Assembly (NCBI GenBank): GCA_905250025.1
Contig: CAJNOJ010000078.1
Span: 62,001-126,000 of the forward strand
Length of the DNA stretch: 64,000 nucleotides
Reading direction: 5' to 3'
Source of the DNA: Adineta ricciae
Taxonomy: Eukaryota > Rotifera > Eurotatoria > Adinetida > Adinetidae
The notes beneath the pieces were generated by a model that made no database searches, was not told the DNA's origin, and saw nothing but the letters and a program-made list of their open reading frames with translations. The translations under genes were made by a program, and so were the position numbers. Shown piece by piece: positions 9,471 to 42,400 of the stretch (the first letter of the stretch is position 1; every line of letters starts with the position of its first letter).

Positions 9471-10028
9471 CTCTGTTTATTCGATTGAAATAATGACAAA
9501 AACTTAAGTGCTATCTGTCTATTCATCCAAGTCAAGTAACAGAATCGAAATTTCTTTGTTCTTCATTCTAGTTTATTCTTCATGTAACCACTTCTATATC
9601 AAGCGCTACTGTCTATTTTGTCGACAAATTGGTGTGAACCGTAAGATTTAATGATGAAGCTATTATCCATTCTTTGTATTAGAATCGAATGCACTATCAA
9701 CAACAATATATGAGAGCATGAAAGAAGCCTTCGATCTATAAGCCAATGCGTTTTTGTTTTACGCAGAATTCTTAAGGTGAATGCATACCGAAAATACTCG
9801 AATTTATTATCTCTATCACCATAGACTAAAGCTTCACTGTGTTTATTTTTCATATCATACTGTTAAGGTTTTTTTACGAAGACAAAGATATCTACATAGG
9901 AAGAAAAAAGCTCTCTCCACAGACTCCCAAAATTCGAGCTGATAAGAGATTTTAAATGTGCTCTCACAAATAACCATTTTTTCAACGTGTCTTATTATTA
10001 TAGCGTTTGCGTTACAAACAATACAGAT
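9471..10028. promoter_or_regulatory. Divergent intergenic region between NCAPH copy B and ART-TPR
   Basis: 558 bp separate two head-to-head start codons, so the regulatory sequences of both genes must lie here or in their introns. The reading frame of the downstream gene is open back to 9987, but no ATG lies before 10029. A pyrimidine/TA stretch ending in AG near 10000 could also be a splice acceptor. Confidence 0.45.
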
Positions 10029-12806
10029 ATGCTTAAGCAGACAACAGTGACTTCGGTCGAAACAGATAGGCCTAATCGTGTAAAAATTCAACAAGTACAA
10101 GATATTACTGTGGTCTGGTTGGACAAACATATTCACAGTAGTAATCAAGATCATCGGAATATAATTACACAACTTCAACTTGTTGTTAGTGATGTTCATA
10201 CTTTTACTGATAACGATCAGTGCATTGAATTTATTGTCGATAGCATCGACACCGAAGTATATCTACTCATTTCAGGATCACTTGGCCAACATATTGTACC
10301 TTGCATACATGATATCTCCAATATCAATTCTATTTTCATCTTCTGTAACAATCAAAATCGACACGAACGCTGGGCTAAAAACTGGTTGAAGGTGAAGAGT
10401 GTTTCTATTGACATTTTCCATATATGTCAACAATTAAAACAAATCGTTCGTCGTAATGATCTCAATACCATATCTATCAGCTTTGTGAAATTTGACAAAA
10501 GATTAGATCAATTAGATCCATCATTTATGTACACGCAGATTATTAAAGAAATATTATTAACCATAAAATTTGAAGACAAACATATAAAAGAATTCGTCAA
10601 CTACTATTGTGATAAATTTGTTCATAACGAAATTGATCGAAAGGAAGTAAAACAATTGGAATCTATATATCGTTCTGAAACGCCCATTTGGTGGTATACA
10701 ACACAGAGATTTCTGTATGGTATGCTGAATCGTGCATTACGAGTGATGGATGGTGAAGTGATCACACTAATGGGCTTTTTTATCAGTGATCTCCATCGAC
10801 ACCTTGAACAGCTGCACAAGCAGCAGTTTCGGGACGTCCCCAGTGCTGAAAGCTTCACAGTTTATCGTGGTCAAACTTTGGCCAGAAAAGATTTTGATGA
10901 ATTGGTAGCATCCAAAGGTGGATTGTTGGCATTCAATAACTTCTTGTCTACTAGTAAGAACCGCGAGGTCTCCCAACTTTATCTTCCAAAAGATCAAAAG
11001 CACAGTGGCGTTGTCAGTGTTCTTTTTGTAATGGAAATTGATCCTAAACAGTCAACCGCAACATTCGCTTCCGTTCAATACATCAGTAAATATTCGGACG
11101 AAGAAGAAATTCTCTTTTCGATGCACAGCATCTTTCGCATAGATAATATCACGGCAATGGAAGAAAATGAAGAAGAGTATTTAGTAAACTTATCGTTGAG
11201 TAATAGTGATGATGAAGAATTGAGAGTACTTACTGAGCAAATCCGAAAAGAAAGCTCTCCAAATACAGAAGGATGGAAGCGATTAGGTGCCGTGCTAAGA
11301 GATATAGGGCACTTAGATATTGCTGAACGAATTTGTAAATCACTAATTAATGAAAGAACATCTACAGACGGTATGGAAATTCTTTATAACGAACTTGGCA
11401 CGATAAAATGCCATCAAGGACAATATGAAGCGAGTGTAACACTATTTGAAAAATCTCTTCAACTGCAACTACAATCACTTCCTTCCAATCATCCAGATGT
11501 AGCTTCATCCTACAACAACATCGGTACAGTGTATTCTCACATGGGTCAATATTCAAAGGCACTAGTTTCATATGAAGAGGCCCTCAAAATTAAACTACAA
11601 TCACTTCCTTCCAATCATCCTTCTGTAGCTTCATCCTACAACAGCATCGGTGCAGTGTATTCTGACATGGGTGAATATTCAAAGGCACTAGTTTCATATG
11701 AAGAGGCTCTCAAAATTAGACTACAATCACTTCCTTCCAATCATCCAGATGTAGCTTCATCCTACAACAACATCGGTACAGTGTATTCTCACATGGGTCA
11801 ATATTCAAAGGCACTAGTTTCATATGAAGAGGCTCTCAAAATTAGACTACAATCACTTCCTTCCAATCATCCTTCTGTAGCTTCATCCTACAGCAACATC
11901 GGTGCAGTTTATTCTGACATGGGTGAATATTCAAAGGCACTAGTTTCACATGAAGAGGCCCTCAAAATTAAACTACAATCACTTCCTTCCAATCATCCAG
12001 ATGTAGCTTCATCCTACAACAACATCGGTTTAGTGTATTCTGACATGGGTGAACATTCAAAGGCACTAGTTTCATATGAAGAGGCCCTCAAAATTCAACT
12101 ACAATCACTTCCTTCCAATCATCCTTCTGTAGCTGCGTCCTACAATAACATCGGTTTAGTGTATTCTTACATGGGTGAATATTCAAAGGCACTAGTTTCA
12201 CATGAAGAGGCCCTCAAAATTGAACTACAATCACTTCCTTCCAATCATCCAGATGTAGCTTCATCCTACAACAACATCGGTTTAGTGTATTCTCATATGG
12301 GTCAATATTCAAAGGCACTAGTTTCATATGAAGAGGCCCTCAAAATTCAACTACAATCACTTCCTTCCAATCATCCAGATGTAGCTTCATCCTACAACAA
12401 CATCGGCGTAGCGTATTCTGACATGGGTGAATATTCAAAGGCACTAGTTTCATATGAAGAGGCCCTCAAAATTCGACTACAATCACTTCCTTCCAATCAT
12501 CCAGATGTAGCTTCATCCTACAACAACATCGGTGCAGTGTATTCTCACATGGGTCAATATTCAAAGGCACTAGTTTCACATGAAGAGGCCCTCAAAATTC
12601 GACTACAATCACTTCCTTCCAATCATCCTTCTGTAGCTTCATCCTACAACAACATCGGTTTAGTGTATTCTCGCATGGGGGAATATTCAAAAGCCTATTT
12701 ATTTTTCAAAGACGCTCTTCAAATTGGGCGGCAAGTACTATCAGTAACACATCCTCATGTTCAAAGCTATAAAAGGAACTTGGAGTTAGTGCAACAAACA
12801 CTGTAA
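10029..12806 (+). CDS. Arginine ADP-ribosyltransferase with C-terminal TPR array
   Basis: Single-exon gene of 925 codons. Residues about 1-200 form an unassigned alpha/beta-looking domain. Residues about 270-390 match the eukaryotic mono-ADP-ribosyltransferase fold with the full R-S-E set: Arg280 in VYRGQ, Ser307-Thr-Ser309 in FLSTS, and E358-E-E360 in SDEEEILF. This predicts NAD-dependent transfer of ADP-ribose, normally to arginine. No signal peptide or C-terminal membrane segment is seen, so it is probably intracellular. From about residue 425 on, TPRs of the kinesin-light-chain type follow: one degenerate repeat (YNELGTIKCHQGQYEASVTL) and ten nearly identical 42-residue units, then a divergent end. 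The TPRs should bind a partner protein; the target is unknown. The start is the first ATG and is conserved in the truncated copy at 6913. Similar ART-TPR genes are known to be numerous in bdelloid rotifers. Confidence 0.88.
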   Translation: MLKQTTVTSVETDRPNRVKIQQVQDITVVWLDKHIHSSNQDHRNIITQLQLVVSDVHTFTDNDQCIEFIVDSIDTEVYLLISGSLGQHIVPCIHDISNINSIFIFCNNQNRHERWAKNWLKVKSVSIDIFHICQQLKQIVRRNDLNTISISFVKFDKRLDQLDPSFMYTQIIKEILLTIKFEDKHIKEFVNYYCDKFVHNEIDRKEVKQLESIYRSETPIWWYTTQRFLYGMLNRALRVMDGEVITLMGFFISDLHRHLEQLHKQQFRDVPSAESFTVYRGQTLARKDFDELVASKGGLLAFNNFLSTSKNREVSQLYLPKDQKHSGVVSVLFVMEIDPKQSTATFASVQYISKYSDEEEILFSMHSIFRIDNITAMEENEEEYLVNLSLSNSDDEELRVLTEQIRKESSPNTEGWKRLGAVLRDIGHLDIAERICKSLINERTSTDGMEILYNELGTIKCHQGQYEASVTLFEKSLQLQLQSLPSNHPDVASSYNNIGTVYSHMGQYSKALVSYEEALKIKLQSLPSNHPSVASSYNSIGAVYSDMGEYSKALVSYEEALKIRLQSLPSNHPDVASSYNNIGTVYSHMGQYSKALVSYEEALKIRLQSLPSNHPSVASSYSNIGAVYSDMGEYSKALVSHEEALKIKLQSLPSNHPDVASSYNNIGLVYSDMGEHSKALVSYEEALKIQLQSLPSNHPSVAASYNNIGLVYSYMGEYSKALVSHEEALKIELQSLPSNHPDVASSYNNIGLVYSHMGQYSKALVSYEEALKIQLQSLPSNHPDVASSYNNIGVAYSDMGEYSKALVSYEEALKIRLQSLPSNHPDVASSYNNIGAVYSHMGQYSKALVSHEEALKIRLQSLPSNHPSVASSYNNIGLVYSRMGEYSKAYLFFKDALQIGRQVLSVTHPHVQSYKRNLELVQQTL
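11478..12690 (+). repeat. Ten tandem 126-bp TPR-coding units
   Basis: The period is exactly 126 bp (42 codons): unit 1 starts at 11478 and unit 10 at 12612. Units differ mostly at a few positions: NHPDV versus NHPSV, and SHMGQ versus SDMGE. Units 1-2 and 3-4 repeat the same D/HMGQ then S/DMGE pattern, indicating recent duplication of a two-unit block. Confidence 0.97.
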
Positions 12807-19758: not shown

Positions 19759-20974
19759 ATGACCAAACGATCACTTGATGTGGAAAACAAGGAAAACGAA
19801 TCCGAATCCAATTCAGCTACTACAAATGATCCTCTTCCAGCTAAGAAACCGAAATTAATTGCTCAAACAAATGACCATGAAGACGAAAAGGAGGTCGAGC
19901 ACGATTCGGATGGAGAAGAGGATGAAGAAGACGAAGTAGTAGAAGAAGAAGAGGAAGAGGAAGGTCCCATTTCAATTTCCCAAGTGATCGAACTCAATGA
20001 AGGAACAATTCATCCAAAACACAAAGAATATTTCATATACGAAGGAACAGATCTTAGTATGGTCTCTCGAACAGCCCGTTTTTGGAGTCGAAAATATCTA
20101 CAAGCGCTTCGACATGTCAATCCTGATGCATACAATGTACGTTTCTCATTGTCCACAAAAACATATGTATATCGAATGTCTTGTTAGATGTACATTCATA
20201 ATGACTTTGTTTGTTATGGTGAACTGGAAGTCCTGGAAAATTGTCTTATCGATCTAGCGAAAGGAACATTACTTAAACATAAGGGCCAAATGAACAGCGC
20301 TAATTGCATCACAGCCTTTCGTCGTCTAGAAGCATTAACAATAGTGCTTAAAGAAGCAGATAATTTTGTTGGTATGGATGACGGAGACCGTTTCGTCGCC
20401 ATTTTACGTGTCATCGGTGCGTGTTACGTGACTATTCTTGGTACTTTATTACCTAAATCATTATTTCACAACGGTTCCGTCGAGAACGAAGATGATATAA
20501 AAAAATTAACTAAACTTGCTCAACAATTGCCTAACTTCAAAGAAGTTCTTAAACAAGCTCTAATTCGTGCTCGACTCTATTTACAAATTGGAGACGCTCG
20601 AACCGCTTATATCAACGTTTTATACGTAAGTTTTCCACATAAATCTATATCGTATAATTCTAATTTGTATACTACAGACGATCTATTGCCATTGGTCAAC
20701 AATTATCGATAAAAATCGTATTGATTTGAATGTAAAATCCGATGAACAAGATGAAGAGATATGGGAAGCATTAAAGTGTGCGGCTCGAATAAAGAAAACA
20801 GCTTATAAGGAATCGTTCAACTTCTTGAAAGAACTCGAAATTTATTCAAAAATGTATCCTGACTTAGGTGGCCATTCGCACGATCTCCGTAAATGGTCTA
20901 AAACTCGACGAAACATGTACTCTTTCGATAATATGGATGACGAACCGGTAGGAAACTTTTGGTTGCGCCTATGA
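19759..20974 (+). CDS. Uncharacterised acidic protein, 370 aa
   Basis: Three exons (19759-20136, 20188-20625, 20678-20974) all join in phase 0. Residues about 1-75 are disordered and highly charged, with a basic KKPKL patch (possible nuclear signal) and a long Glu/Asp run. The rest is predicted helical with no family I recognise; conspicuous stretches are SMVSRTARFWSRKYLQAL, GDRFVAILRVIGACYVTILG and the C-terminal LRKWSKTRRNMYSFDNMDD. The acidic N-terminus resembles that of histone chaperones or ribosome-assembly proteins, but that is only composition. Clean splice phases and lack of stops show it is a real gene. Confidence 0.75.
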
Positions 20975-22409
20975 ATAATTTCTTGTGTACAAATGTAAAA
21001 GACTAGTTTTTATTTTGATTTTTGTCTTTCAATCGAAATGAAGTTTGTTATTTTATGCTCTAAAAGTATTATTTCAAATAGTATCTTGAAGTGTTTTTCT
21101 TTTTCTCGTCTTTTTCACATTTTTGTATAAAACACTTGATCGTATGTCAGTATAATATATATGTATAGAAGATTCGAATGGAATTCTGCGTCGCCTTCGT
21201 TTTTCGTTTTTTTTTTCTTCTAAAGGTAGGTTTAATGAGAAATATGAAAATGAGTTATGCAGGACGACAGCTTGTTTTTTTCTTCTTTTTTTCTTAGTTT
21301 GCATATGAGAAGAGATTAGAGTGTTTGAATGCGTAAACGAGCGCACAGCTAGAAGTAATGTGAAGTATGTAAAGATATACCGATCAACAAGGTCGCAGTC
21401 ATCAGTTGTATGTTTCGTATACGAAACACAGAAGGAGAAAGAAGAAAAATTGTGAAAGATGAGATAAAACGTATTCTTTTACTTGAAATTTTTGCTTCAA
21501 CAATTTACCAACGTTTTCTCTTTCCCTTCAAAACCGAATGACGTCGGTCGGTTATTTTCGCTACTGATTCATGCAAAGCTTGAATAATTGCTTTTTAAGG
21601 GCATACTACTTAATCCTTCGTCTATCTTTTCCTCGCAAAATAAAATTCAAGTACTTCATTCGAAAGGAAATTATTTACATTTATTATATATATATATGGA
21701 TGAATTGTGTTTATTTTTGAGCCTTATTTTCTCTGCATATGATATATTAGCAAAGAAGGCGAAATGAAATTATTTTCGTCTGTACAAGAAAGAAAAACGA
21801 AAGATCTATCGATCATATCTCGTATTTCCAATGAACAATTGTTTGTTACTGACTTATATTGTATTCCTTTCTCGTTAATGACTATNTTTATTTTTTCTGT
21901 TTAGACTACTAAAACTTAAATCTTCCAATACAGACCTCCTTTTTTCTGTTCTTAAGTATAAGTGTGAGCTTTGTTTTTTTTTCCCCATAATCATATTTTG
22001 TTTTCTATTTGCTCGTCAAATCACACATAGCGGGAGCTCATGCTTTGAAAAAAAAACATTCATACATTTATATATGCATATATCAATATCAATATATAAA
22101 TAAAAAACCTTGATTATTTCTTTTTTGCTTCACTACATTACGATGCATAACTAATTATTAATTTGTTCGTGTGTATCATTGATTAATTTAATATGTATAC
22201 TTTTTATTTTTTCAACACCGTCCACTGTCGCCGTCGTCGTTTATCATTAGCACGCATTTTTTCATCACTTTGTTTAATGCGTGAGATATTTCTTTTCTGA
22301 ATAGCGAAAAACGTCGCAAGTCTTTCTGTCTTACTCGACATTGAAACGAGCATGACTGACTATCATCTTTGAAACAAAGACCGAAAACACGACAATTATT
22401 TCTCTTTAG
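20975..22409. other. Long non-coding stretch, poly-T rich
   Basis: About 1.4 kb without convincing coding sequence on either strand. Long T runs, AT repeats near 21685 and a single N near 21886. It separates the 370-aa gene from the lamin-tail exon, and none of the coiled-coil exons expected for an intermediate filament gene was found in it. Confidence 0.5.
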
Positions 22410-27480: not shown

Positions 27481-28126
27481 ATGACTCAACCCAGTAGATT
27501 AAACAAAACTCTTTGGAGGAATCTCACTGAGCTAAAGTTATTGAACAAAGACAATACGCCATTCAAGTTCGTACTCGATAAATCGCCATTTCGTGAAGAT
27601 GACGACGATGAGAATGACGAATCTGGAAAAGAGCAAACAGAACTACTGATTATTGGACGAATATTTCCAAATTGTGATACATTTAAAGAAAGTGCTTTCA
27701 AAATAGAAATCAAACTCACATCCAAGTATCCTGCCGACCCACCTGAAGTAAGATTTCTGACTCCTATTTATCACCCAAATATAACAAAAGATGGTAAATA
27801 AGTAAACTTTGATCGATAATTTGATTATCCTTTCACATTACTCGAAGGCAAATTTTGTCATCCGTTATTGGTGAAAAGTTTACGATGGAAACCGCATACA
27901 TCTTTGGTTGAAGTAGTCAAAGCTGTTGTCGAACATGTGGCTAATCCGGATCTCGATTATGCAATCAATCTTGGTTCGTATCTTTAACTAAAGCTTACGC
28001 TTGTCTTCAATAGTTTTTCTCAACTTTTCTCGTGTAGATATTGCCGAGGAGTATACGAACAATAGACCTGAATTTGAACTCAAAGCCTCAAAGATGATCA
28101 ATGAACACAAGTTGCCTCGAAATTAA
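27481..28126 (+). CDS. UBE2L3-like E2 ubiquitin-conjugating enzyme, cluster gene 1 (acidic insert)
   Basis: E2 enzymes carry activated ubiquitin as a cysteine thioester; UBE2L3-type E2s serve RBR and HECT ligases. Exons 27481-27793, 27848-27973 and 28038-28126 join to 175 residues. UBC core: helix 1 (NKTLWRNLTELKLL), AFKIEIKL, YPADPPEVRF, TPIYHPN, then the active-site Cys eight residues after the HPN Asn in GKFCHPLL, RWKPHTSLVEVVKAV, and the C-terminal helix ending KLPRN. Resemblance to UBE2L3 is greatest in the AFRIEI, WKP and EEY segments. Unlike UBE2L3, an acidic insert (about residues 37-55, FREDDDDENDESGKEQ) sits between the first two strands. A polyadenylation signal AATAAA lies at 28183, so it is its own transcription unit. 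Confidence 0.88.
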
Positions 28127-28687
28127 AAGCAGTATTTTTTCTGGGAATTGAATGTATTTACTCTGTTTTTTATTCACACTAGAATAAACATATTTATGAG
28201 TGAAAGTGAACTTATGTCACAGCTCCATGCAAAATACGATGAAACAACAAAGTAATAAATCATTTAATGATTGAAGATGCACAGATAATTAATCAATAAA
28301 TCGATATGCGTGCAATGAGACGTGAAATCAATTGCGTATCTTGTTTTGTATGAATTTCAAGTTCGGCTTGTGGAAGGACGAAGGCATGAGTGTGTGAGAA
28401 TAGAATACGTCATAGGTCCCTAGATATTTTTGTGTTTTTACTTTGTGTGATTCGGATGTAATGCGAATATACGCGAAATATTCGACAAGGAAGTAAATAA
28501 AGTAATTAGGCAGCATTGCTCTCATCTTATTTTGCATTAATAACGTCTACTTATATATAAAGAACATTTTTCGTTTGCTATTTTCATCGCCGAAGAGATT
28601 GAGAGCATTAACTAATACGAAACACTGCTTTTTCTATACGATTTCAATCATTCCACACAAGTCAACAAGCAGCCCGAAATTGTCTAC
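28127..28687. other. Spacer between E2 genes 1 and 2
   Basis: It contains the AATAAA of gene 1 (28183-28188). A TATA-like CTTATATATAAAG near 28550 lies about 130 bp before the next start codon. No coding sequence recognised. Confidence 0.45.
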
Positions 28688-29325
28688 ATGTCGCGATCGA
28701 GAATACTAAATAAACGTTTGTACCAAGATATTGCTGGATTGAAGCGTTTGAATACAGAAGATGCCGAAGTTCGATTCAAAGTAGTACAGTCACCATTCTC
28801 CGATGAAGAAGACGACGACGACGACATGCCCAAGAGTGTTGCGCAAAAAGAATGTGGACTAATTGGTCTAATCTATCCTCAATCGAATATATACAAAGAC
28901 GTTGCATTCAAAATTAAAATCATATTTCCTCAAACGTTTCCAATGGTTCCGCCCACCGTCACTTTTGTTACTCCAATCTATCATCCAAATGTGACAGACA
29001 AAGGTAGGGTAAAACCGGCTGATTCATTCTTGACTCTAGTAATGCATATAGGAGAGTTCTGTAATGAACTGTTAACAAGAAACAGCAAGTGGTTATCAAC
29101 TACATCTTTGCTCGAAGTTGTTAAAATCGTTACTCAGCATATCGATGAGCCTGATTCTACTAATCCGATCCGAGCAGGTTAGTATTCGATTTCTTTCAAT
29201 CATTTTTTAAATATACAAACGGTGATATGTTTCTAGCTGTGGGTGTTGAGTACACAAATAATCGAGCTCAGTTCGAGAGCAACGCAAGAGAACACGCTTT
29301 AAAATATGGCGAACCACGTAAATGA
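28688..29325 (+). CDS. UBE2L3-like E2 enzyme, cluster gene 2 (acidic insert)
   Basis: Exons 28688-29003, 29052-29177 and 29237-29325 give 176 residues. Introns interrupt the same codons as in gene 1, and exons 2 and 3 have identical lengths (126 and 89 nt). The core has HPN (IYHPNVTDKG) and the catalytic Cys in GEFCNELL, eight residues after Asn as in functional E2s. The insert is SDEEDDDDDMPKSVAQKE. The C-terminus (VEYTNNRAQFESNAREHALK) resembles the last helix of UBE2L3. Sequence is clearly divergent from gene 1 outside the core, so the duplication is not recent. AATAAA lies at 29345. Predicted active on sequence grounds. Confidence 0.88.
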
Positions 29326-29986
29326 TTGCTTCGTTGTATCGTTAAATAAACATCATCACACGTAAAAACATGCATAATCAAACGATTTTTTTTCTTTTTT
29401 GCTTGGCGTTTTGCTCTTGTTTATCGCTTTACGTATACAATTTAGACATCCTCAAAGCATTCGGTCATATCAATCAGCATTTGTGATAGATATCTTTTAA
29501 AATAAATAGTGTCCCAAAGAAGAATTTGATGTTGATATCGATTCACATGATTACTGCGTTGATTCATCATTCAATAACCAACCTAAGAAATACCTCTTTT
29601 GATTTGATGATGAAAAATCGATGGGAATTTTCTTTCCGATTTTCGATAGTTATGATAATACATCACATCCTACGTTAGCTAACGAAGAAACATCATCATT
29701 AAAAAGATATATCGTTATTCATCTTCGTACTCTGTTAGTCATTCTTTCATTCAACTATTACTCATGTAAAGCTTGTAAGAAGCCATTGGTTGGAAAAAAA
29801 CTGAAGAAAGAATGAAGCTTGTGCGTTTTCTTTCTGTTCTATGTTGGAAAAAATAGTGTCGTTAACAACGTGCTTCTCTTTTTAAACGCTTGATTCGCTC
29901 TTTACATCCAAACAGGTATATATAGTCCAACGAAGATAGTAGGATATGGAGAATTTTACTGCGAAAATTAGTACTCAGAGTGGTGA
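29326..29986. other. Spacer between E2 gene 2 and the E2 relic
   Basis: Contains the AATAAA of gene 2 (29345-29350). A 64-codon frame at 29621-29815 has no recognisable similarity. Nothing else found. Confidence 0.45.
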
Positions 29987-30140
29987 ATGAATCGAAACAT
30001 ACAACCGAAGAAGCAGTTCAGTATCATGCGATTATTTCCAACACAATCGATGTACGAAAATAGTGTCTTTCAGAGTAAGATCAAAGTTGTTGGAAAAAAC
30101 CCAGTAGATGCAAGTCACATCCGTTTTTTTTTGTTTCGAC
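29987..30140 (+). pseudogene. Decayed E2 ubiquitin-conjugating enzyme fragment
   Basis: The frame contains IMRLFPTQSMYENSVFQSKI, then KVVGKNPVDASHIRF. This aligns with the middle of the neighbouring E2s (IIGRIFPNCDTFKESAFKIE, then IKLTSKYPADPPEVRF) over about 35 residues in the right order, with no gap. Directly afterwards the sequence turns into a T run and loses the HPN and Cys region. No E2 N-terminal helix or C-terminal exons are visible nearby. It is in the same orientation and position order as the functional genes, so it is best read as a dead member of the tandem array. Confidence 0.68.
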
Positions 30141-30740
30141 TTGTCAGCTATATATTATGTCGTGATCCTATGTATAAGTATAGGTTCTTTTCTTAAAAGC
30201 GGCGTACTCCTATCTGTTGCACAACCTATTGAAGTACTTAGCTGGTGAAAACCTATACAAGTGGGTTAAAATTTCGTACTCTTGTTGGTCTTGTCTTTTT
30301 TTAGTTTGTTCTCATCGTAGAATATAGAGTTTCTGTGTAACGTGCGAGAAGAAAACGACATTTTTCATTTTTTTGTAATACTTCTTCGACTAAGTATAGG
30401 TTATAATTCAAATAAGAGAATTTCATTTTTAACGCATAGAGAACATATCATACGATGGGTATGTTCTTCTACTTCCTCGGACGCTTCGAAAGTTGAGAGA
30501 AGAAACGAAAAACACTGTTTTCGTCTGTACTGTAGCGAATATGCTTCGAAACGTCGCTTTTCTCCTTTTATCGCTCTCATTTTTGTATTTGTTTTGTACG
30601 CTGACGAGTTAGATAAATAGCTGGTTTTTTTGTGTCACGCACTTTTCAGCACAGATAGTCGGCGAGCTATGGACAACGTGTCACTGCTGTTCAGGAAAAA
30701 TATTTTTCATATTGTTTGACTTTTTCAGATAAAACTCGAC
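30141..30740. other. Spacer between E2 relic and E2 gene 3
   Basis: About 600 bp of AT-rich sequence; a 92-codon frame at 30342-30620 has no E2 similarity. It must include the 5' region of gene 3. Confidence 0.45.
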
Positions 30741-31376
30741 ATGAGCGACCCTAGATTGAATAGAGTTCTTCACAAACAAGTCCAGGATTTGTCACGTTGT
30801 AATACACCAAATGCACCGGTGCGATTTCGCTTGAAAAAATCACCATTCGACGACGACGACGAAGATGAATGCGACACCAAAGAAGAAGCAAGCGCTGTCG
30901 ATAAAACTCATAAGCTTACTGGATGTATATATCCAAATTCTGATATCTACAAGGAAGCAGCGTTTGAAATTGAATTAGGCTTACACAAAACATATCCTCT
31001 GGAACCACCTGAAGTTCGATTTCTTACTCCTATTTATCATCCCAACGTTGGCGTCGATGGTAAGATGCTCTTCGGAAAGCATGTGAATAATCTTGGCTGT
31101 CTTTCCTAGGGAAATTTTGTCACGAAGTATTGAAAAAAACAGTGGAATGGAAGTCGAATACTACTCTGATCGATGTAGTGAAAGCAATTGTGGACAGGAT
31201 TGATAAACCAGACGTTGATCAAACGATAACCTTTGGTGCGTCTTTTAATTTCTTGTTAATTTTCTCGGTTAACTTCCGTATTTTTAGAAGTGGGCAAGGA
31301 GTACGCCGAAGAGCCAGCTGAATTCAAACGTAAAGCAATAGAATCTGTTAGAAAAAATGGACTGCCGCGAAACTAA
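30741..31376 (+). CDS. UBE2L3-like E2 enzyme, cluster gene 3 (acidic insert)
   Basis: Exons 30741-31059, 31110-31235 and 31288-31376 give 177 residues with intron positions and exon 2/3 lengths identical to genes 1 and 2. Active-site region: IYHPNVGVDG then KFCHEVLKK, with Cys eight residues after Asn. The insert is DDDDEDECDTKEEASAVDKT. EWKSNTTLIDVVKAIVDRI corresponds to the helix after the catalytic loop, and the protein ends KNGLPRN, close to gene 1. AATAAA lies at 31422. Probably functional; likely partners are RBR/HECT-type ligases by analogy with UBE2L3. Confidence 0.88.
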
Positions 31377-32553
31377 ACGACCGAGTATATGAACTTTGAT
31401 GTTTTTTTCGAATGCTAAAAAAATAAAACAGGCTTAGTGTATACATTTTGATCTTATCAAGAATGAGATATTCTTATTGCATTCAAAAGCTGTAAATTTA
31501 GATAAGCTTCGCCCATTGAAACTAAAAATAGTCAAAACACTAACGAGATTTCCATTGAAAAAGTTTGTTAATGATTTGTATGCAAAAGTATGTCGTGTAT
31601 CTTACACGCGTTTGTGCAATTAATCGAATATGTCTACAGAAAAGACGAAAATAAACAGAGATAACACATGCAATAGAACCTGGATTGAATTTCAGTTTGT
31701 AGATGATAAATCATTATGAATTATCTTAGTGCCCTCGGAATGTTGAGAATATCCGTTACTATTTCAGACAACACTTCGTTTCTAGAGATACCCAATGTTC
31801 AAATGGACGATGTTGGATTGAAATTTTTCTCGTGTTTTTACTACCATAGACAAGGAATGGAAGCGACTACCACACAATGTTGCAGGTCATTCATCACTTT
31901 TCTTCTTAACTTGTCAAAACCACCTTCAAGAGGACAATCACATCTAATAGATTGTCAAATCTACTTTATGATTTAAGGAAAAGCGTGTTTCTTATTAAAA
32001 TCTGGCATTAAAGGTGAAACAACTGAGAAAAAGTGTCGCCTAGTTCGTAAGTTTATCTTCAGCGAAAAAAGAAACATTATCATTTCTATTTTGCCGACGA
32101 ATATAGCGACGTTATTTCATTGGCTGAAGAAGTCATCTAACCCATTCGCTCTTCGCTTTACGTCACAAGCAGCAACAGCAGCTATGTTGTTTTTTCGCGA
32201 AGGATCCAACAACGAGTCCTTTTTTCTTCTTTTTCTTCAACTATCAGGTTTTTACATTCTGCTTTTCCACATCAACGTTTCTGACGAGAAAAAAATGTGA
32301 TAGATTGTTTTTTTATTTATCATCATATCTTTTCTTTTACTAAATACACAACAGGATTGCACAATCGCTTAGAAATCATATGCTTATGAGTAATTATTAC
32401 TGTTTGAATTCTTCTTATACGTGGATGAAAAGCAAAGAGTGTATTTACCCATGGAAAAAATAGAAGTATCCTTTGTAGAGTCATGGGAAGAAATCATAAG
32501 ATCAAATAGCAAATCAGTGCATTTTACTTTTATCTACTTTTAGATAGAAATCT
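31377..32553. other. 1.2-kb spacer in the E2 array, possible second relic
   Basis: No intact gene. A frame at 31716-31976 holds IPNVQMDDVGLKFFSC, followed about ten codons later by MEATTT. The order and spacing loosely echo HPNVGVDGKFC and EWKSNTT of gene 3, and GGAATGGAAG is shared at the DNA level. This is too weak to call a pseudogene by eye. Confidence 0.35.
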
Positions 32554-33093
32554 ATGGCGGGTTCGGTAACAAACAGACGTGTCTTGAGTGAAATAACCAA
32601 ACTTCAAGCATTAGCATCGAGCAGCGAATGCAAATTTCTTCTTGATAAATCGCCTATCGATGATCCGTCATCGAATATCATTCTGGGAAGAATTTTACCT
32701 AAATCTAACATTTACAACCAAGCAGCGTTTCAAATAGAAATCAAGTTGCCAACAGACTACCCATTCAAGCCACCTGAACTTCGTTTCGTCACGCCCATTT
32801 ATCATCCCAATGTCGACGAAAATGGCAAAACATGTGTTGAGTTAATCAACATATCAGAAAATTTCAAGCCTACAACACCTTTGACTGACGTTGTCAAAGC
32901 TGTAGCCAATTTGATTGATAGTCCAAACATCGAACATGCACTCAATCTTGGTACGTTATTATTTTGCGAAAAATAAATTTTTCTCTTTCATCGATTTTCT
33001 GTAGATATCGCTGCCGAATATGCGCAGAATAAATCGACATTTGAACGCAAAGCATTGGAAATGGTGAAAAAACACGGTTTACCGCGCCAGTAA
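32554..33093 (+). CDS. UBE2L3-like E2 enzyme, cluster gene 4 (no acidic insert, intron lost)
   Basis: Two exons (32554-32950 and 33005-33093) give 161 residues. The first is equivalent to exons 1 and 2 of the other genes fused, so the first intron is missing; the last exon keeps the 89-nt length. It has no acidic insert and is closest to UBE2L3: AFQIEIKLPTDYPFKPPELR, IYHPNVDENGKTC (Cys eight after Asn), ISENFKPTTPLTDVVKAV, EHALNLG, and AAEYAQNKSTFERKAL. Either it is the ancestral-like member of the array or a cDNA-mediated/gene-conversion event removed the intron. Probably a functional E2. Confidence 0.88.
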
Positions 33094-33451
33094 TATACGA
33101 ACACCAAAAAACTTTTTGTTTCTTTCTTCCCCCTTCCGGTTCGGCTTTTATTATTTCGTTCTTATCTAAAAAATCAACTGTGATTTGGATACACAAAAGA
33201 CAAACACAATCGTGTCTATGTGTAACACTTAGTTCGGTGTCCGAAAGCATTCAAAAGAAAGATCACCCTTGTATTTTTATTTTTCATGATTGGCGAAAGA
33301 AAATAAATAAAACTCAAAGAATAAAAAAAACCGTCACATGACGATGTTGTGTTTTTCTTCTTACTTTGCATACTTGTTTTTAGCAGCAGTCAATTGATGC
33401 TTTCGGGCATGACTCATGCACGAATGAAACCGTTCTGTCATTCTCTTTTAG
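33094..33451. other. Spacer between E2 genes 4 and 5
   Basis: AATAAA-like signals occur near 33302-33312. Nothing else recognised. Confidence 0.45.
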
Positions 33452-33961
33452 ATGGCATCGAAGCATATACGTTTACTAAAAGATCTTGCTCATATTGATG
33501 AAACTTTCAAATCCGATCGGCTATTTTTCATAAAGAAAAAACTCGATGCATCAACCTGTGATGCCATTCATGAAACGGATCTCACTCATCCGATATTTAT
33601 CTATACGCCTCAACAATCTCCTTACCTTGGTGGAGAATTTGAAATCGAGATAAGTTTGCCACTGGATTATCCATCCACGACACCGCGTGTCAAATTTCGT
33701 ACGCCGATTTATAGTCCTATCGTTGACGAATCAGGCACGTTGTCGTGTTTACCGATTCTTCAACGCTGGCAGTCATATCCAACAAATTCCGTCCAATTAC
33801 GTGATATACTTGTGGAAATCGATTATTATATTACACATTTAGAAGATGTGGACGAACCTCATCGGCCAGGATTACTTATCGAATGGAATGATGATCCAGC
33901 TGGATTTGTAAAAACAGCTGAACAACAAACAAAAGAATTAGCGAAACCACAAAAACGATGA
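33452..33961 (+). CDS. Divergent E2-like protein, cluster gene 5 (HPN motif lost)
   Basis: Single exon, 169 residues. The UBC fold is recognisable: GGEFEIEISLPLDYPSTTPR, VKFRTPIY, then SPIVDESGTLSCLPIL. The HPN motif is replaced by S-P-I and there is one extra residue before the cysteine, which remains in an LPIL context as in UBE2L3. In E2s the HPN Asn supports isopeptide bond formation, so lysine transfer is expected to be impaired, although thioester formation or transfer to a ligase cysteine may persist. The N-terminus (TFKSDRLFFIKKKLD) and the C-terminal third differ from the other members. It is either a pseudo-E2 with a regulatory role or an E2 with altered chemistry. All introns are absent. 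Confidence 0.82.
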   Translation: MASKHIRLLKDLAHIDETFKSDRLFFIKKKLDASTCDAIHETDLTHPIFIYTPQQSPYLGGEFEIEISLPLDYPSTTPRVKFRTPIYSPIVDESGTLSCLPILQRWQSYPTNSVQLRDILVEIDYYITHLEDVDEPHRPGLLIEWNDDPAGFVKTAEQQTKELAKPQKR

Positions 33962-34051
33962 ACAGCCTTCTTCCTTCGTTGATATTGATCTACTCCGCCA
34001 TATTTATCAAAATTTGTTTGATGTAGTCTTGTATGTATTGTATATTTCTAG

Positions 34052-37000
34052 ATGACTGAACTTGATATGCGCGAGCAAATGACGGACGTCACGGCGTCAT
34101 GGCGTATTTATGATGAAATTAGCTATAGGTATGTCTACGTCCACACCTAAAGTTAATTCGAGGACGAATGTCTACTATGGTATCTTAACTTTCTCTTTCA
34201 ACACAGAAAGGTGGAATCAACTGTGCTGACTGGTGGTTTGGCTCAAATTCGAGATGTTCGTGGTTCGGCAAGCGATACTATTAAACCTTTTGTTGCAATA
34301 GCTCCATGTGGAGGACCAGTTGGTAAACGATCAGTTGTTGTTTAAGTTAATCGTTTAATACTTTTGTTCACTATAGCTTTTGTATATAAGAGACTGTCAA
34401 CGAACCTAAACGATACTAAATATACAATAATGATAGAGCATTTACCGAAACTTGCTGTGAAACCCAAAGAGGTAAGCCGAGCAACGCCGTTCAAATTGAA
34501 AACTGTTGTTAATAAACTGTTTAGTTCGATCGAGGAATAGTTATTTTCGTCGACTGGACAATCAATGAAGATTTATTATTAGTGACTGAAGATGGTAAAT
34601 ATCATATCATGAATATATTCCATTATAACGCAAGTAACGATGTGTCAAAGCAATTGGGTGAAGTAAGTTTCATTTGGAATTACTCTTACGATTGCATCAC
34701 GCGACTATTTAGTCCGTTTCAGTTATTAGTAGTGCATGTACATTTAAAACCAATCAAGGTACTGGTCTAGTTGCCCTAGCCAAGAATCAAGAAAGTTTCA
34801 TTACTGTTAAAAACGTCTATAGTCCAATTATTCAAACGATATCACCTAGTAAGACTCACGATTATTCCAACAAAACCTAACTATCGGTTTTTTAGGTGCT
34901 GATCTCCGTTCAACAATATCTGCATGGTGTGTTATTGACCATGCTGAGTTGACTATAGCTTACGCTTACGACAATATCATAGCCACATGTGGTACGACGT
35001 CTCGACGAGAACAAGTAAACGGACAATTTCCTTCACAAGAAAAAAAAAGTTTTACCTTCTAGCAAATCATTCCTGGTATAACTGATACGATTGTTAAGTT
35101 AGTATCAAGCAGCAATTACAAAAGTATAGCTGTATTACGTGATAATGGAGATGTGTTTATTGGTTCGAGAGAAAATATCGGAAGTCCACAATCATTTGTA
35201 TTGAAATATTCAAGTAATAATGATAAGGCAAAAGTCACCGATATTGCTTGGTAAGAGGAAGAATCATTCGACGATTTTTATACAAGAAGTGCTTGTGTTT
35301 TGAAAGGTCCGGCTCCGATACAGTCATTGGCGTTCGAGTTAAATCAAAAGTTTGGTTTGATTTATTGGTCATCAATGGCAAACATTCGCGACCGATGACG
35401 TTCGTTTCATGTTTTATCATTTGTCTAATGTAACACTTGTTTTCTTAGTGAACAAAGTCGTCAAGCAATTTCCGATGATTTGTAAGTTGGAAATCTTCAC
35501 TTCTGATATTTTCACTGAAATCTGCTTTCAAGTGTTTATTATACATCCCCTGTGTATCTAACAACTGAAATTGATGGCATTCGAATCGCATCGGGTCGAT
35601 CACTTGATTTCTTTCAACGTTTACCCGACGAAATCTACAATGTTTTTCATCTACTATCCGATAGTCCTGGTGCTAAGCTTTATTCCGCTTACATGAACTA
35701 CAAAGTAACATTTTCTATTGACGAAAAACTCGTGTTGGAAATACAAATCGATTTTCAGTATGAAAATCAAATGGCTGAATTGCTGTTAAATCAATTAAAA
35801 TCAACTCGAACAACCAATGGACTCGAAGAAGGTGTGAAACAATGTATCGCAGCAGCGTCTCATGAACATGAATCAAAAAACCAAAAGATCCTTCTGAAAG
35901 TCAGAACAAAACTTCTGCTAAATCGATCAATTTCACTGAATATTTTCTATTAGGCCGCACTTTTCGGTCGTTCGTTCTTATGTGTTAATTTAAATCAACC
36001 GAAAACTTCCGTTCGTCCAACTGTATCTGTCATCAACGATTTATGTACGAATACAATTCGTAATCTACATCTAGTCAACAACTTACATCACATTGATATA
36101 TCCATTCCAATAACATATAAACAGTTCGAGATTTGAATAAGTATTTTGTTGTCTTTTGCTCATTGAATTCAATCTAGATTTGAACTACTTGGAACACGGA
36201 TACTGATCGATCGTTTACTTCGACGTAATCTGCACGAATTCGCAACACATGTTACGAAATTGTTACGTATGCCACCGGAAGAAGGAGAAAATCGAATTCT
36301 CGTACAATGGGCTGTACAACAAGTATGCAAAAATGTCACTTTTTCAAAAGATTACTAGTGCGATGCATTTAGCTCAATGATCCTGCGAACACCAATGAAG
36401 AAGCTATAGCTGAATCGATAAAAAAAAGTCTTGCCAATGTTCCTGGTATTCCATTTATAGATATTGTCAAAGCGGCAAATCAAGCAAAGAAATACATTGT
36501 TGCTGAACGAGTAAATAACGCATCTGCCAAGTTATTTCGAATCATAAATGATTTACATTTAGTTACTGGATGTCAAAGTTAGTCTTAGCGATCAAATCGA
36601 TATGTTGTTAACGTTGAATAAACGAAACGAAGCTTTGGATAAAGCACTTGCGTGTGGTGATACGGATCTAGGTGAGCATAACGTTTTCATTTTGAATAAA
36701 ATCATCGATTTCTCCCTTTAGCTATTTTTGTATTGATGAGAATAAAATCAAGTGGTGACGTGTCTCTAACTGACTTCAATTTAAAACTAGCGAAACTGAA
36801 AAATTTACCGCTGAGCTTATTGCTTCAAGTACGAGAGAAAATGATCGATTTCGCTTGTTTGAATTGGTCTGTTTTAGTGTTTAGAAGAACGTGATCGAAA
36901 TAATTTTCATAATGAACTGAGAAAGCAAAACTCCAGCGAACGAGAACGAGTTGCTTACTCGCATATTATTCAAAGATTCACCACAGCTATCGTAAGTCTG

Positions 37001-37860: not shown

Positions 37861-39480
37861 AAAATCAATTAATTCAGATTCGACCAATGATTCCAAGTTT
37901 TCTTTTTTCAAATGTGAATTTTTTTATATGCTGATTATTTAATTTAAACAAAAAGAAAATAAATGCTATTTTTCTGTTCACATTTCCTAGTTATTCCGCC
38001 TAGCGTCAATCGTTACATGCCTCTTTGCTACTAAGAATGACATTAAGTCGTCAATGATGTAATTGTTCTAATTACAAAGATGTACTGGCACATTGATGAT
38101 GCCTTCTTGGTCACGCCTAATCATCTGTCATGCTGTTTACATGATCAAAAGATGTAATAGTCCAATTTTCTCTTATCATTCCCGAATTTCACTTCGGAAA
38201 CTCATCGCTAATTTCAAAAAAAGCAGTCATTGATGATCATCTGTCGCTAATTGTTAAAATTCTGATGAGGGTAATGAGCGTTAGGTAGTGAGAGAATTTG
38301 TCATTATTATGGAGTGATAAAAGACGCGTCTGCTTTCAGCTCTTTCTGAAATGTTGGCTATGCTGTAAACCGCCTATTTGAAAAGAAAAGTAAGAATTTC
38401 TGAGAAAAGGAGACAAATTGTTCTAATGAGAATCTCGACAGTGTCTGACGTTGAACAGATGAAATGTACTTGAAGCAAATTAGCTTATTAGATCATTGTT
38501 CTCGACTAAAGTACGATGAAGAAATTCTTTTCTTGGGAAGATTTCACTTTAAACGGACGTTTGTTTTTCTTCTTGTGTAAGAAGAATAAATAATGAATTT
38601 TGTGCGAGAGCGAAAGAAAAAAGATCGGGCTTGAATATCGCATGTGAAGCATTCATTTGATAATTAACCAAAGTAAATCTGACAAATAAGAAAAGGGTCT
38701 CGACTGATACTTTCGGTTCATTTTCTTTCTCTATTTTCAGTTCTTCGATCGGATGTCATTTACATCAAGTTTCATATAATTCATCTCGTTTTGTTCTGAC
38801 ATGGTCGACAGCAGGTATTTTATTCTGTATTGATCGACATCATTATCGAGAATAATAATGCACACAATATACTTTTATAAAAGCATTTAGAAGTTGATCA
38901 TGTCTGCGAAGGTATGTGTGCATTTCTATGTTAAAATCCGTTTCTAATGTTGTTGACAGTTTAGTGGTTTTCACTTTTTTTTGCTAGTATAATCAAGTCA
39001 GTGAGTAAGAAGAACAAGACGAGGAAAAGAACAGAGGAAAATATCTTTTTTTTTCTTCCCTTCTCTTCGATAAAGTGAAAAAGAAGAAAAAGTGTTCATC
39101 AAAAGAAAGAAAATGCCCGTCGATTCGAATGAAGAGGAAATAGGTGGCTAAAGGTGGGTATTAGTCCTGAAAATCAAGTCTATTATATAGAATTTATCAC
39201 ATTATGACAATGTTCGGTAATTATCTGTCTTCTTCTGCTTATACTTTGGTGTAGAATTCCCTCGTTCTGATGAAAGTATCAGCAATAGACATGACTTTGA
39301 CAAAATAATCGATTCGTATTGAATAGGATGAATAATCTTGTGTGTTGAACTGGAATTCATCAAACAGGTAGCACCAAAAGAGTGTTTGTATCCTTTTTCC
39401 AGCTTAAAAAGAATGTGAATGCCTTCTTACAATGGCCTGTTTTCCACTCACGTGGAGTTCTAATTCTAGATTTGATAAAC
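37861..39480. other. Long intergenic region, possible upstream exon
   Basis: About 1.6 kb with no clear gene. ATG TCT GCG AAG followed by a donor (38900-38911) could be a tiny first exon of the downstream gene: a good acceptor before 39403 would join in frame to the filament-like reading frame, adding about 30 residues. That join needs an intron of nearly 500 bp, so it is only a suggestion. Confidence 0.4.
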
Positions 39481-42400
39481 ATGGTGAATGTCTTTGACGA
39501 TCAGCTGTGGAACGACGTCGCTTCTCGAGTTGAGCAATCCCGTTCTTCGTACAACATTCAAGCTGAACAATTTCGCTCGCTGAATACAAATTTTCAAACA
39601 TATTTAATCGATACAAAACAAATTGATGATGACAACAATCGTTTGCAGAACAGCATTGAAGAAATTCGAACGAATTATATTCAAACATTAGAAAATCATC
39701 TGAAACGTTTACCAGAAGACTTTCGGCAAGAAAGTTTGGTTTTGACTGATGCTCATCTTCAGCGATACAAATCGAAAACTCGTGCGAAGCGTTTCATAAA
39801 CGAACGCGAAGAGATCAAAAAACGAATCAACTTCGTGGTCAATAATGAAAAGGAACAGCTCAAACGTTTGAATCAGTTACAAAGACAAGATCGCGCTGTT
39901 CAGAATGAATTGAAATGTATTAATGAGCAATTACAAAGTGCTTTAAATCATGTCGAAAGAGAAAAGCAGATTCACCGTCAGGCAACGGAGAAAATCGATC
40001 AATTACAAATGCAATTGGAACAAGTTTATGTTGAACGATCGAAAACTGAGGTAAGACGCTATTGGAAAGAAGATTTTCATGTCTAAACCTGACGAATTCT
40101 AGTTTGAAGTGCAAAGTCTTCGAGAAGAAGTGAAGCTGATGCAAACTGCAAAGGAATTTCTTGATGAAGAGTATGAAACTATACTTGAAGCACAAACCGA
40201 TGCGAATCTGTATCTTTTATCGTGTTTAAATGAATCTATTCTGCGTATACACGCTGATTTCGAACATTTGAATAACCAGCAAATCGAACAGATTGAGAAT
40301 GAATACAAACAAACGATAAAAAAGCTCGAAGAAACATCTCTAGCGAATGTAACAGGCAATGAGATAGAGATCGCTCAGCAACATACATCTCAAACAGAAT
40401 GTGGAAAACTTGAAGAAGAGTATCGATCAGCCAATGAAGAATTATCAAAACTACATGAGCATAATCGATTGTTATCTGATCGTATCTCTTCTATGGTAAG
40501 TTCAATTGATTTGTTCTTAGTTTCGATTGAAAATACACATTACAGGAAATGGATTTACGTGCCATACGTAATACACATTTACGGGAATCGAACGATAAAG
40601 ACAATGAATTGCAACGAAGTAAAATCGCATTGGAAGCTTTGAATGAACAGTTGACACGTTTGACTGAATACGATCGAAATTTGCAATTTGAATTGACACT
40701 CTATCGAGGGGTTTTGGAAAGTGAGTATCGACGAAAACAACAGCAATTAGCTAATGACCAACAGCCACATCGACCAACGGTATTGCGAACGACACTCGCA
40801 CGAGCGCATAAAACTTATCCTGTAAGTAGATCAGTGTGAGAAGGAAAGAATTGATCTATGTTTCATGTTCAAAGATTTTACCATATTTGAACCAAACTGA
40901 ACTCAATGAAGAAAAGAACGATGTACCGTCTACTGAATCTGCATTATCAACAATTTATGTAGAAGATGATCAAATTAAGAATACAGAGAACCTGTCAAGA
41001 GTATCGGAAAAATCACCCGATGATAATCAACAAACGAATACGCCGAAAACTCCTCAACAGTCGCCGTCAGAAGTGCAAACAGTGGTAACCCATAGTGAAG
41101 ACCTACCGAATGCATCATCATCACCATCTACTTCGGAAGGAAATAGTCTATTCGAAACGATAACGTATTTAACTTCGTCGTTGTTAGAAAAAGAAGAAGA
41201 CTTGACCAATAACAATGACGTACAAATCGCATCTACAGAACATGACGACGAGTCACCCCTTCAAACAGAACAATCTGCTTTAACAACCTTAGAAGATAAA
41301 CAAGTGCCAGAGACGTATCAAGAGCATTTTACTGATTCAGACATTCTTGAAAATCAGCAAGAATCTAAAGAAGTTCTTCAACCGGTGTTAATCGACTCAG
41401 AGGAGCATGAATCATGGATTAAATCTCAGGACAAGCCAATGTCTCCTGTTAAAGAAGAAGCCAACTATTTAGAAGCATTGTCATCATCGTTAAAGCAACT
41501 CGTGAAGTCGTTTGAAAGTGATCAAATACCCGACAAAGAAGCAAAGCCGAACGACGAAAAAGTTGTTACATCTCCAACGAATTTTTCATCTTTAATACAA
41601 TCCGATGAGCAGCAAAACTCGGCAATGTCACCTATCGAATCTACTACATTGGAGAAACAAACACTGTCTGACGTATCAGAAAATCAGCATTTTTCTACCA
41701 GTAATCATCAAGCAACAGAAGAAACATCAGTTATATGTACTGATGAACGGTACCCATCGAATTCCATAGGTAAATAAGCATTATGCGTACAACTTATTCA
41801 ATAATCTATTTTTCGTAGGAGATCTGGGTAATGAAAATCACTTGGCAGAATCATCTGACGGATATGATAACGATTTTGAATCAGAAGAGAAAACCAAATC
41901 ATCATTTTCCTATGAAACTGACGACGCGGAACAAGATCCGTCCCGCCCGTCAATTTACCGTATCGAAGAATTGGAAACCGATCCATCTGATAAAGAAGAA
42001 TCATCTTCTTTTGATGTATCAAAAGCACACCGTTTTCTAAATTCATCTGGAAAAAACGACGCGAAGCTCGAAGAAGATCCTATAACAACAGAAGAACCAG
42101 TTAGTTCTTCTGATTACAACCAAATTGAGGAGAACAGTGACATTGGCTTTATCTCCTCATCAGGTTATTATGGAACTGCAAACGATAGTACTCATTTGCA
42201 AAATCAAGAATTGAAACGAACCGATTCAAGTGAAGCATCATTAACTGATGTGTGTGACGACAACGTAGAGCCATTAGAAGGTCAGTACGAATGATCACTC
42301 TTTGAAGCGAATATGTTTCTAGTCTAGAAGCTGATCGATCAACTTCTCCTAAACTCGAAGACAGGGAATCTAATGAAAACAGTTTAGAAGCTGTTATGGA

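Follow-up and report, generated by a model that had tools for sequence, protein, structure and literature searches.

The window analysed here is a 64,000-nucleotide stretch of the genome of the bdelloid rotifer Adineta ricciae (positions 62001-126000 of contig CAJNOJ010000078.1, hereafter C78). Five intact genes encoding ubiquitin-conjugating enzymes (E2s), named g1 to g5, lie within positions 27481-33961, all on the + strand. All five reading frames are free of stops, and each of the proteins matches the Pfam family UQ_con (65.7-105.2 bits, cut-off 27). Both the His-Pro-Asn (HPN) motif and the catalytic Cys are present in g1-g4; g5 has the Cys and carries SPI at the HPN site. Copies and relatives of these genes were sought in the genome (130 Mb, 1033 contigs).

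The first three genes encode E2s with an acidic loop. The UBE2L3-like g1 (27481-28126, 175 aa) has exons at 27481-27793, 27848-27973, and 28038-28126, and alignment to UBE2L3 places its acidic insert (codons 38-52, positions 27592-27636, limits approximate) at the beta1-beta2 turn. Equivalent inserts are found in g2 (28688-29325, 176 aa; exons 28688-29003, 29052-29177, and 29237-29325) and g3 (30741-31376, 177 aa; exons 30741-31059, 31110-31235, and 31288-31376). All three keep the catalytic Cys, and position 63 is occupied by Ala, Met, and Leu, respectively. The most UBE2L3-like member of the window, g4 (32554-33093, 161 aa; exons 32554-32950 and 33005-33093), has no acidic run. The last gene, g5 (33452-33961, 169 aa), is divergent and intronless.

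All seven introns of the array are in phase 1 and have GT-AG ends. Exon 2 measures exactly 126 bp and exon 3 exactly 89 bp in each of g1, g2, and g3; the first intron is absent from g4, whose last exon is still 89 bp long. In local alignments the g1-g4 proteins are 35-47% identical among themselves, and g5 is 28-40% identical to them. An initial annotation had described five same-strand E2 genes in 6.5 kb, common intron positions and exon lengths in g1-g3, and widely diverged proteins, and it had explained them by tandem duplication within a UBE2L3-like group some of whose members lost introns or died; the gene models, the shared exon structure, and a gene remnant agree with this description. 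The remnant, 35 codons of a further E2 exon 1 detected by tblastn at 30023-30127 on the + strand, is also found on a second contig, C51. Its E-value is 1.9e-5, compared with best values of 0.006-0.31 in 10 mononucleotide shuffles of intergenic DNA. What had been called a dead copy is therefore an E2 piece and no recognisable gene. Separate poly(A) signals had been assigned to all five genes. The first AATAAA lies 56, 19, 45, and 208 nt past the stop codons of g1, g2, g3, and g4 (400 nt examined), and no poly(A) hexamer was found after g5 in the 99 nt searched ahead of the next gene (33962-34060), so that the claim stands for four genes. The two poly(A) hexamers have a density of 1.8 per kb of window, and one within 400 nt is weak evidence alone.

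Homologous and Ohnologous Copies of the Array

On C51 the five genes are all present, their order unchanged and their frames intact, and the splice sites of g1-g4 are intact on both C78 and C51. DNA identity between the two contigs, taken per 500-bp step, is 87-95% within the array; on either side of it most steps lie at 93-97%. Synonymous divergence (dS) is 0.09-0.17 per gene and 0.13 when pooled over g1-g4, close to the mean KS (the published synonymous measure) of 0.135 for homologues of A. ricciae; that of A. vaga is 0.05 (PMC5916493). At 20750-22249 of the window C51 is approximately 1.2 kb longer than C78, and a forced alignment gives 54-78% identity amid flanks of approximately 95%.

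A far more diverged block was found in reverse orientation on contig C28, of which 24-52 kb were compared. Protein matches to the left and right of the array are collinear in the two blocks, extending from 19.7 to 43.7 kb in the window and from 52.0 to 24.7 kb on C28. This arrangement of close and distant pairs of copies follows the bdelloid pattern of homologues and ohnologues (PMC5916493). The C28 block contains one remnant and five intact E2 genes, in transcription order ge, gc, gb, ga, and g4B. Three of them, ge, gc, and gb, have three exons, of which the second measures 126 or 132 bp and the third 89 bp. The first intron is missing from g4B, as it is from g4, and the exons of ga measure 310, 129, and 86 bp. 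The first intron of gb (L012, C28:33001-43000) has a GC donor (GCAAGT) rather than GT. By pairwise scores g1/ge and g4/g4B are reciprocal best pairs, the former standing first in transcription order and the latter toward the opposite end, and no reciprocal partners were found for the remaining genes. No counterpart of g5 was found on C28; its best genome match outside C51 is 36% identical.

A DNA search of the genome with the flanking genes gave C78, C51, and C28 only, with no fourth copy of the region, and the E2 stretch of C28 used as query matched itself and, more weakly, C218 and C51. The second homologue of the C28 type has either been lost or is collapsed or missing.

Relationship of the Array to UBE2L3

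To our knowledge, UBE2L3 is usually described as a highly conserved single gene that is seldom duplicated. The likeness of the array to UBE2L3, proposed in the initial annotation, was borne out in several comparisons. A profile of the ten proteins encoded on C78 and C28 (g5 included), run against solved structures, gave UBE2L3 first with 127.5 bits, followed by UBE2L6 (105), UBE2D2 (102), and UBE2T (100) among the best 60 of 215 matches. On its own, g4 matched UBE2L3 with 109 bits and UBE2T with 84; UBE2D fell below its match list, and in a search with g4 exon 1 it scored 65 against 84 for UBE2L3. The corresponding values for g1 were 78 bits (UBE2L3) and 68 bits (UBE2T). In pairwise comparison with the human proteins, each of the 14 rotifer proteins compared, including the distant ga as well as g5, scored higher with UBE2L3 than with UBE2D3. 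No plain UBE2L3 was found among the modelled genes, which cover part of the 97 genome matches to human UBE2L3. Seven stretches from C9, C268, C36, C55, and C252 are UBE2D-like, UBE2N-like, or distant (ga-like) family members. An NCBIfam scan, a prokaryote library, gave no match. A viral origin was also considered; one peptide pattern run over viral contigs gave 10 matches, of which none was confirmed.

We placed the modelled loci, which are likewise the scope of the residue counts below, in a tree of 41 rows. The tree does not include nine locus models that were near-copies or generic E2s (C199b, C114a, C314a, C314b, C103, C550, C540, and the second stretches of C9 and C268). The rows for C1005, C36, C268, C55, C252, C281, C377, and C248 are partial, and doubtful ends were trimmed from those of C36, C281, and C248b. 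Generic E2s separate from all other rows with 83% support, after which UBE2L3/UBE2L6 (97%) and then g5 branch off. A 94% split sets the other array genes, the C28 genes, and the other rotifer relatives apart from the generic E2s, UBE2L3/UBE2L6, and g5. Inside this group the distant relatives diverge first (ga with C55/C252, C1005 with C199/C188), with low support of 51-62%. The acidic-loop members of both blocks, together with loci on C208, C479, and C248, are separated from the g4 types and C220 by a 98% split.

Eleven trees were compared by the approximately unbiased (AU) test. A single origin of g1-g5 was rejected (p = 2.6e-5), as was a single origin for g1-g4 apart from the C28 genes (p = 2.2e-12). 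The test allowed the 18-row family as one clan (p = 0.82), the family with its distant relatives and UBE2L3/UBE2L6 (0.62), g5 with UBE2L3/UBE2L6 (0.23), g4 with g4B and C218 (0.19), and g5 with the family (0.12). Because an origin of g1-g4 without the C28 genes is rejected and the acidic-loop and g4 members are split with 98% support, at least these two lines are older than the separation of C78 and C28, as is probably a distinct g2/g3-gb line (63% support). The duplications took place before the C78/C28 split, and the array is an old one with gains and losses, not the product of a recent burst. The monophyletic, private local expansion that had been envisaged for the five genes does not hold. 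Nor is g5 supported as a sister of g1-g4, outside which it branches, its placement with the family still being allowed.

g5, a Probably Separate E2

The branch leading to g5 measures 1.4 substitutions per site and lies outside both g1-g4 and their more distant rotifer relatives. A structure predicted from a 16-sequence alignment has the E2 fold, with a mean predicted local distance difference test (pLDDT) score of 75, a predicted template modelling (pTM) score of 0.70, and poorly predicted residues 21-40. The best Foldseek match by E-value is UBE2L3, with a template modelling (TM) score of 0.80 on the model; among the 50 matches listed, UBE2L3 rows score 0.77-0.80 and other E2 rows 0.61-0.76. 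By sequence UBE2N comes first (59.9 bits) and UBE2L3 reaches 55.

The position of g5 in the tree and its best solved sequence match, UBE2N, are what one would expect if g1-g5 came from different E2 subfamilies and had become neighbours by chance. Since g1-g4 share their gene structure (intron positions, exon lengths, and phase), this explanation is refuted for them; they are also 35-47% identical, and the AU test rejects a tree in which UBE2D joins the family (p = 1.2e-6). The idea is left with g5 only, and for the array we regard it as extremely improbable. g5 is probably a separate E2, tightly constrained, that adjoins the UBE2L3-like genes.

By eye, only 90 nt (33962-34054) separate the stop codon of g5 from the next ATG, which is directly preceded by an acceptor-like TTTCTAG; the sequence CTCTTTTAG likewise abuts the ATG of g5 directly upstream. 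A spliced-leader or operon organisation around g5 and the next gene is possible. A weak Vps16_N match lies downstream at 34525-34767.

Catalytic and E3-Contact Residues

In UBE2L3 (UbcH7), residues Phe63, Lys96, Pro97, Ala98, and Thr99 contact HHARI, a ubiquitin ligase (E3) of the RING-between-RING (RBR) type, and the substitutions F63A and K96S lower activity (PMC5548887). Lys96 makes UbcH7 a good partner of HHARI (PMC5548887; PMC5462532). In addition, His119 replaces the lysine-orienting Asp, and the enzyme acts on thiols (PMC5095918). We counted residues at UBE2L3 positions in ten Cys-bearing members, setting 12 generic E2 rows and 6 distant rotifer rows apart; the homologous C51 copies, C479, and C248b, all of which are in the tree, were left out of the ten.

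Tyr75, His76, Pro77, Asn78, and Cys86 are invariant in all ten members. Thr99 is found in ten and Lys96 in seven of them, and neither residue occurs in any of the 12 generic rows. The lysine-orienting Asp at position 119 is absent from all ten members, its place being taken by Tyr (four), His (three), and Asn, Gln, and Glu (one each). Phe63, the centre of the E3 contact, is kept in five of ten members, the others having Ala, Met, Leu, Glu, or Ser, and Pro97 is retained in four. Three members without an acidic run, g4, g4B, and C218, retain Phe63, Lys96, Pro97, and His119 besides the Thr99 common to all ten. An acidic run is found in the other seven (g1, g2, g3, gb, gc, ge, and C220), and Phe63 is absent from five of these; g1, g2, and g3 have all lost that residue, and g2 and g3 have lost Pro97 as well. 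Five E2 positions described as a hot spot for HECT-type E3s (PMC5095918) vary more than positions drawn at random (p = 0.042, 10,000 draws). For all ten contact positions the excess variability has p = 0.09.

Selection on the Array Genes

Ratios of nonsynonymous to synonymous divergence (dN/dS), calculated by the Nei-Gojobori method between the C78 and C51 copies, are 0.30 for g1, 0.36 for g2, 0.56 for g3, 0.62 for g4, and 0.04 for g5. The range for five coding stretches nearby is 0.15-0.38, with one of the values (47 codons) resting on two changes. No positive selection over whole genes was seen between these copies, and the selection on ubiquitin signalling suggested in the initial annotation is not supported, g1-g4 showing constraint. 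From codon 147 onward g3 has 12 amino-acid changes and 1 silent change (dN 0.20, dS 0.05); the changes are too few and the segment was picked from 12, and nothing is built on it. The array is constrained, and relaxed mildly at most.

These values bear on the main rival to functional diversification, according to which only g4 and its C28 partner would do the work of UBE2L3, while g1-g3 would be redundant and drifting toward loss, their altered E3 face reflecting weaker selection only. In its favour, dN/dS of g1-g4 is above that of g5 (pooled, Fisher p = 0.0009, rounded counts), E2 remnants are present on both blocks, and the hot-spot excess does not go beyond p = 0.042. However, the catalytic residues are invariant in ten of ten members at 35-58% identity (local alignments), the frames and splice sites of g1-g4 are intact on two contigs, g1 and g2 fall within the range of their neighbours, and dN/dS is highest of all five genes in g4, the very gene that would be kept. 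We consider relaxed constraint an unlikely explanation of the array.

Relatives Lacking the Catalytic Cys

Two dispersed acidic-loop relatives, at C208:21545-21865 (L020) and C479:54454-54789 (L021), have HIS in place of HPN and Ser in place of the catalytic Cys. They look like a homologous pair. Both have full frames, usable splice sites, and the acidic run, and dN/dS between them is 0.27 over 173 codons; the pair is under constraint despite the loss of the Cys. Two further relatives lie 53 kb apart on C248 (56664-56951, L030, and 109469-109762, L029) and have Asp at the Cys position. Their third exon was not seen in the stretch read, one of them has an in-frame stop, and their dN/dS is 0.31 over 121 codons.

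Constraint in the absence of HPN and Cys recalls UBE2V (UEV, ubiquitin E2 variant), which lacks both (PMC5095918). The C208 and C479 proteins differ from it in that both their sequence and their exon structure place them in the UBE2L3-like rotifer family; the tree contained no UBE2V rows. They might be conserved regulators that pair with the array E2s, as UBE2V does with UBE2N, which would account for their full frames, splice sites, acidic run, and low dN/dS; the C248 branch, with Asp for Cys, no third exon seen, and one stop, may instead be decaying. As an explanation of these relatives, such pairing strikes us as very unlikely.

Other Features of the Window

A 968-aa open frame at 9900-12803 contains many TPR repeats and has an ADP-ribosyltransferase match (ADPrib_exo_Tox) of 34.7 bits, the cut-off being 23.4. 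Another open frame at 39349-40083, whose C28 counterpart is 58% identical, weakly matches SLATT_4, a domain that occurs in prokaryotic defence genes; the score is 28 bits where the cut-off is 27.

Discussion

The comparisons presented here allow us to propose what the array is. We think it likely, judging from the sequences, that it is an old, still turning-over cluster of bdelloid UBE2L3-class E2s that has diversified in its E3 partners. The proteins would be charged with ubiquitin by the activating enzyme (E1) on the conserved Cys. Because the lysine-orienting Asp is replaced (by His, Tyr, Asn, Gln, and once Glu), the charged members would pass ubiquitin mainly to the Cys of RBR or HECT E3s, as UBE2L3 does; a thiol-directed function for these E3s is suggested by the UBE2L3 literature together with the residues that are kept. 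After the ohnologous copies separated, each would have gained and lost members. As they retain the UBE2L3 contact residues, g4 and its C28 partner would be the strongest candidates for the usual role of UBE2L3, and g1-g3, which have lost Phe63 and, in g2 and g3, Pro97 while keeping the catalytic residues, most likely serve fewer or different E3s. We infer that the changed contact positions may mean new E3 partners.

By profile and pairwise scores, the nearest class is that of UBE2L3 and UBE2L6 (UbcH8); Thr99 and the missing Asp119 in all ten members, and Lys96 in seven, are further points of likeness. The rotifer family differs from these in keeping Phe63 in five and Pro88 in one of the ten, in the acidic insert of most of its members, and in having several tandem genes. 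An acidic loop inserted in the E2 fold is also a feature of CDC34/UBE2R. The CDC34 loop follows the active-site Cys, whereas the rotifer insert precedes HPN and, by alignment, occupies the beta1-beta2 turn.

A number of observations weigh against the proposal. The family appears to lie beside UBE2L3/UBE2L6 and not to be nested inside them, and the 18-row family separates from the remaining rows with only 51% support. A tree that unites the family with UBE2L3/UBE2L6 to the exclusion of the distant rotifer relatives fails the AU test (0.0017) and is not rejected by the Shimodaira-Hasegawa (SH) test (0.17); the same applies to g4/g4B with UBE2L3/UBE2L6 alone (AU 0.001, SH 0.058). When the genome was searched with human UBE2L3, a UBE2D-type gene on C170 (112.8 bits) scored above the first exon of g4B (90.6). 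Pro88, a mark of UBE2L3, is found in one of ten members; Lys96 and Thr99 are each absent from all six distant rotifer rows; and Asp119 is missing from 3 of the 12 generic rows too. Finally, the excess variability of the hot spot is weak, comes from related sequences, and is no proof of partner change.

With regard to a matching expansion of RBR and HECT E3s, this genome, the only one counted, gave 88 IBR and 81 HECT matches, which are exon pieces over several genome copies. As judged by titles and the beginnings of abstracts, no paper on E2 expansion in rotifers was found in the open-licence literature. A UBE2T-like gene of A. vaga is named in a table of PMC12220480. Nothing in the results lends direct support to the role in stress or immunity that the initial annotation had suggested, and the literature offers a single lead on desiccation. 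In a horizontal-transfer study, a ubiquitin-conjugating enzyme and an IBR-containing protein are among the functions suggested to be regulated in desiccation in A. ricciae, and both are also among foreign Rotaria orthologues (PMC4632278); these genes might belong to the array family. A bolder and rather unlikely version of diversification is that bdelloids replaced a single, nearly invariant UBE2L3 by a toolkit of a conventional g4, several E2s that have a charged loop and differ from one another in their E3 faces, and conserved partners lacking the Cys, amounting to a private cysteine-relay branch of the ubiquitin system.

If the cluster has diversified in its E3 partners as we propose, it would be a natural experiment on which surface positions of UBE2L3 set the choice of E3, because several diverged copies have been kept through genome duplication with their catalytic residues fixed and their E3-contact residues changed. 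It would also offer a test case for the origin of E2s that lack the catalytic Cys.

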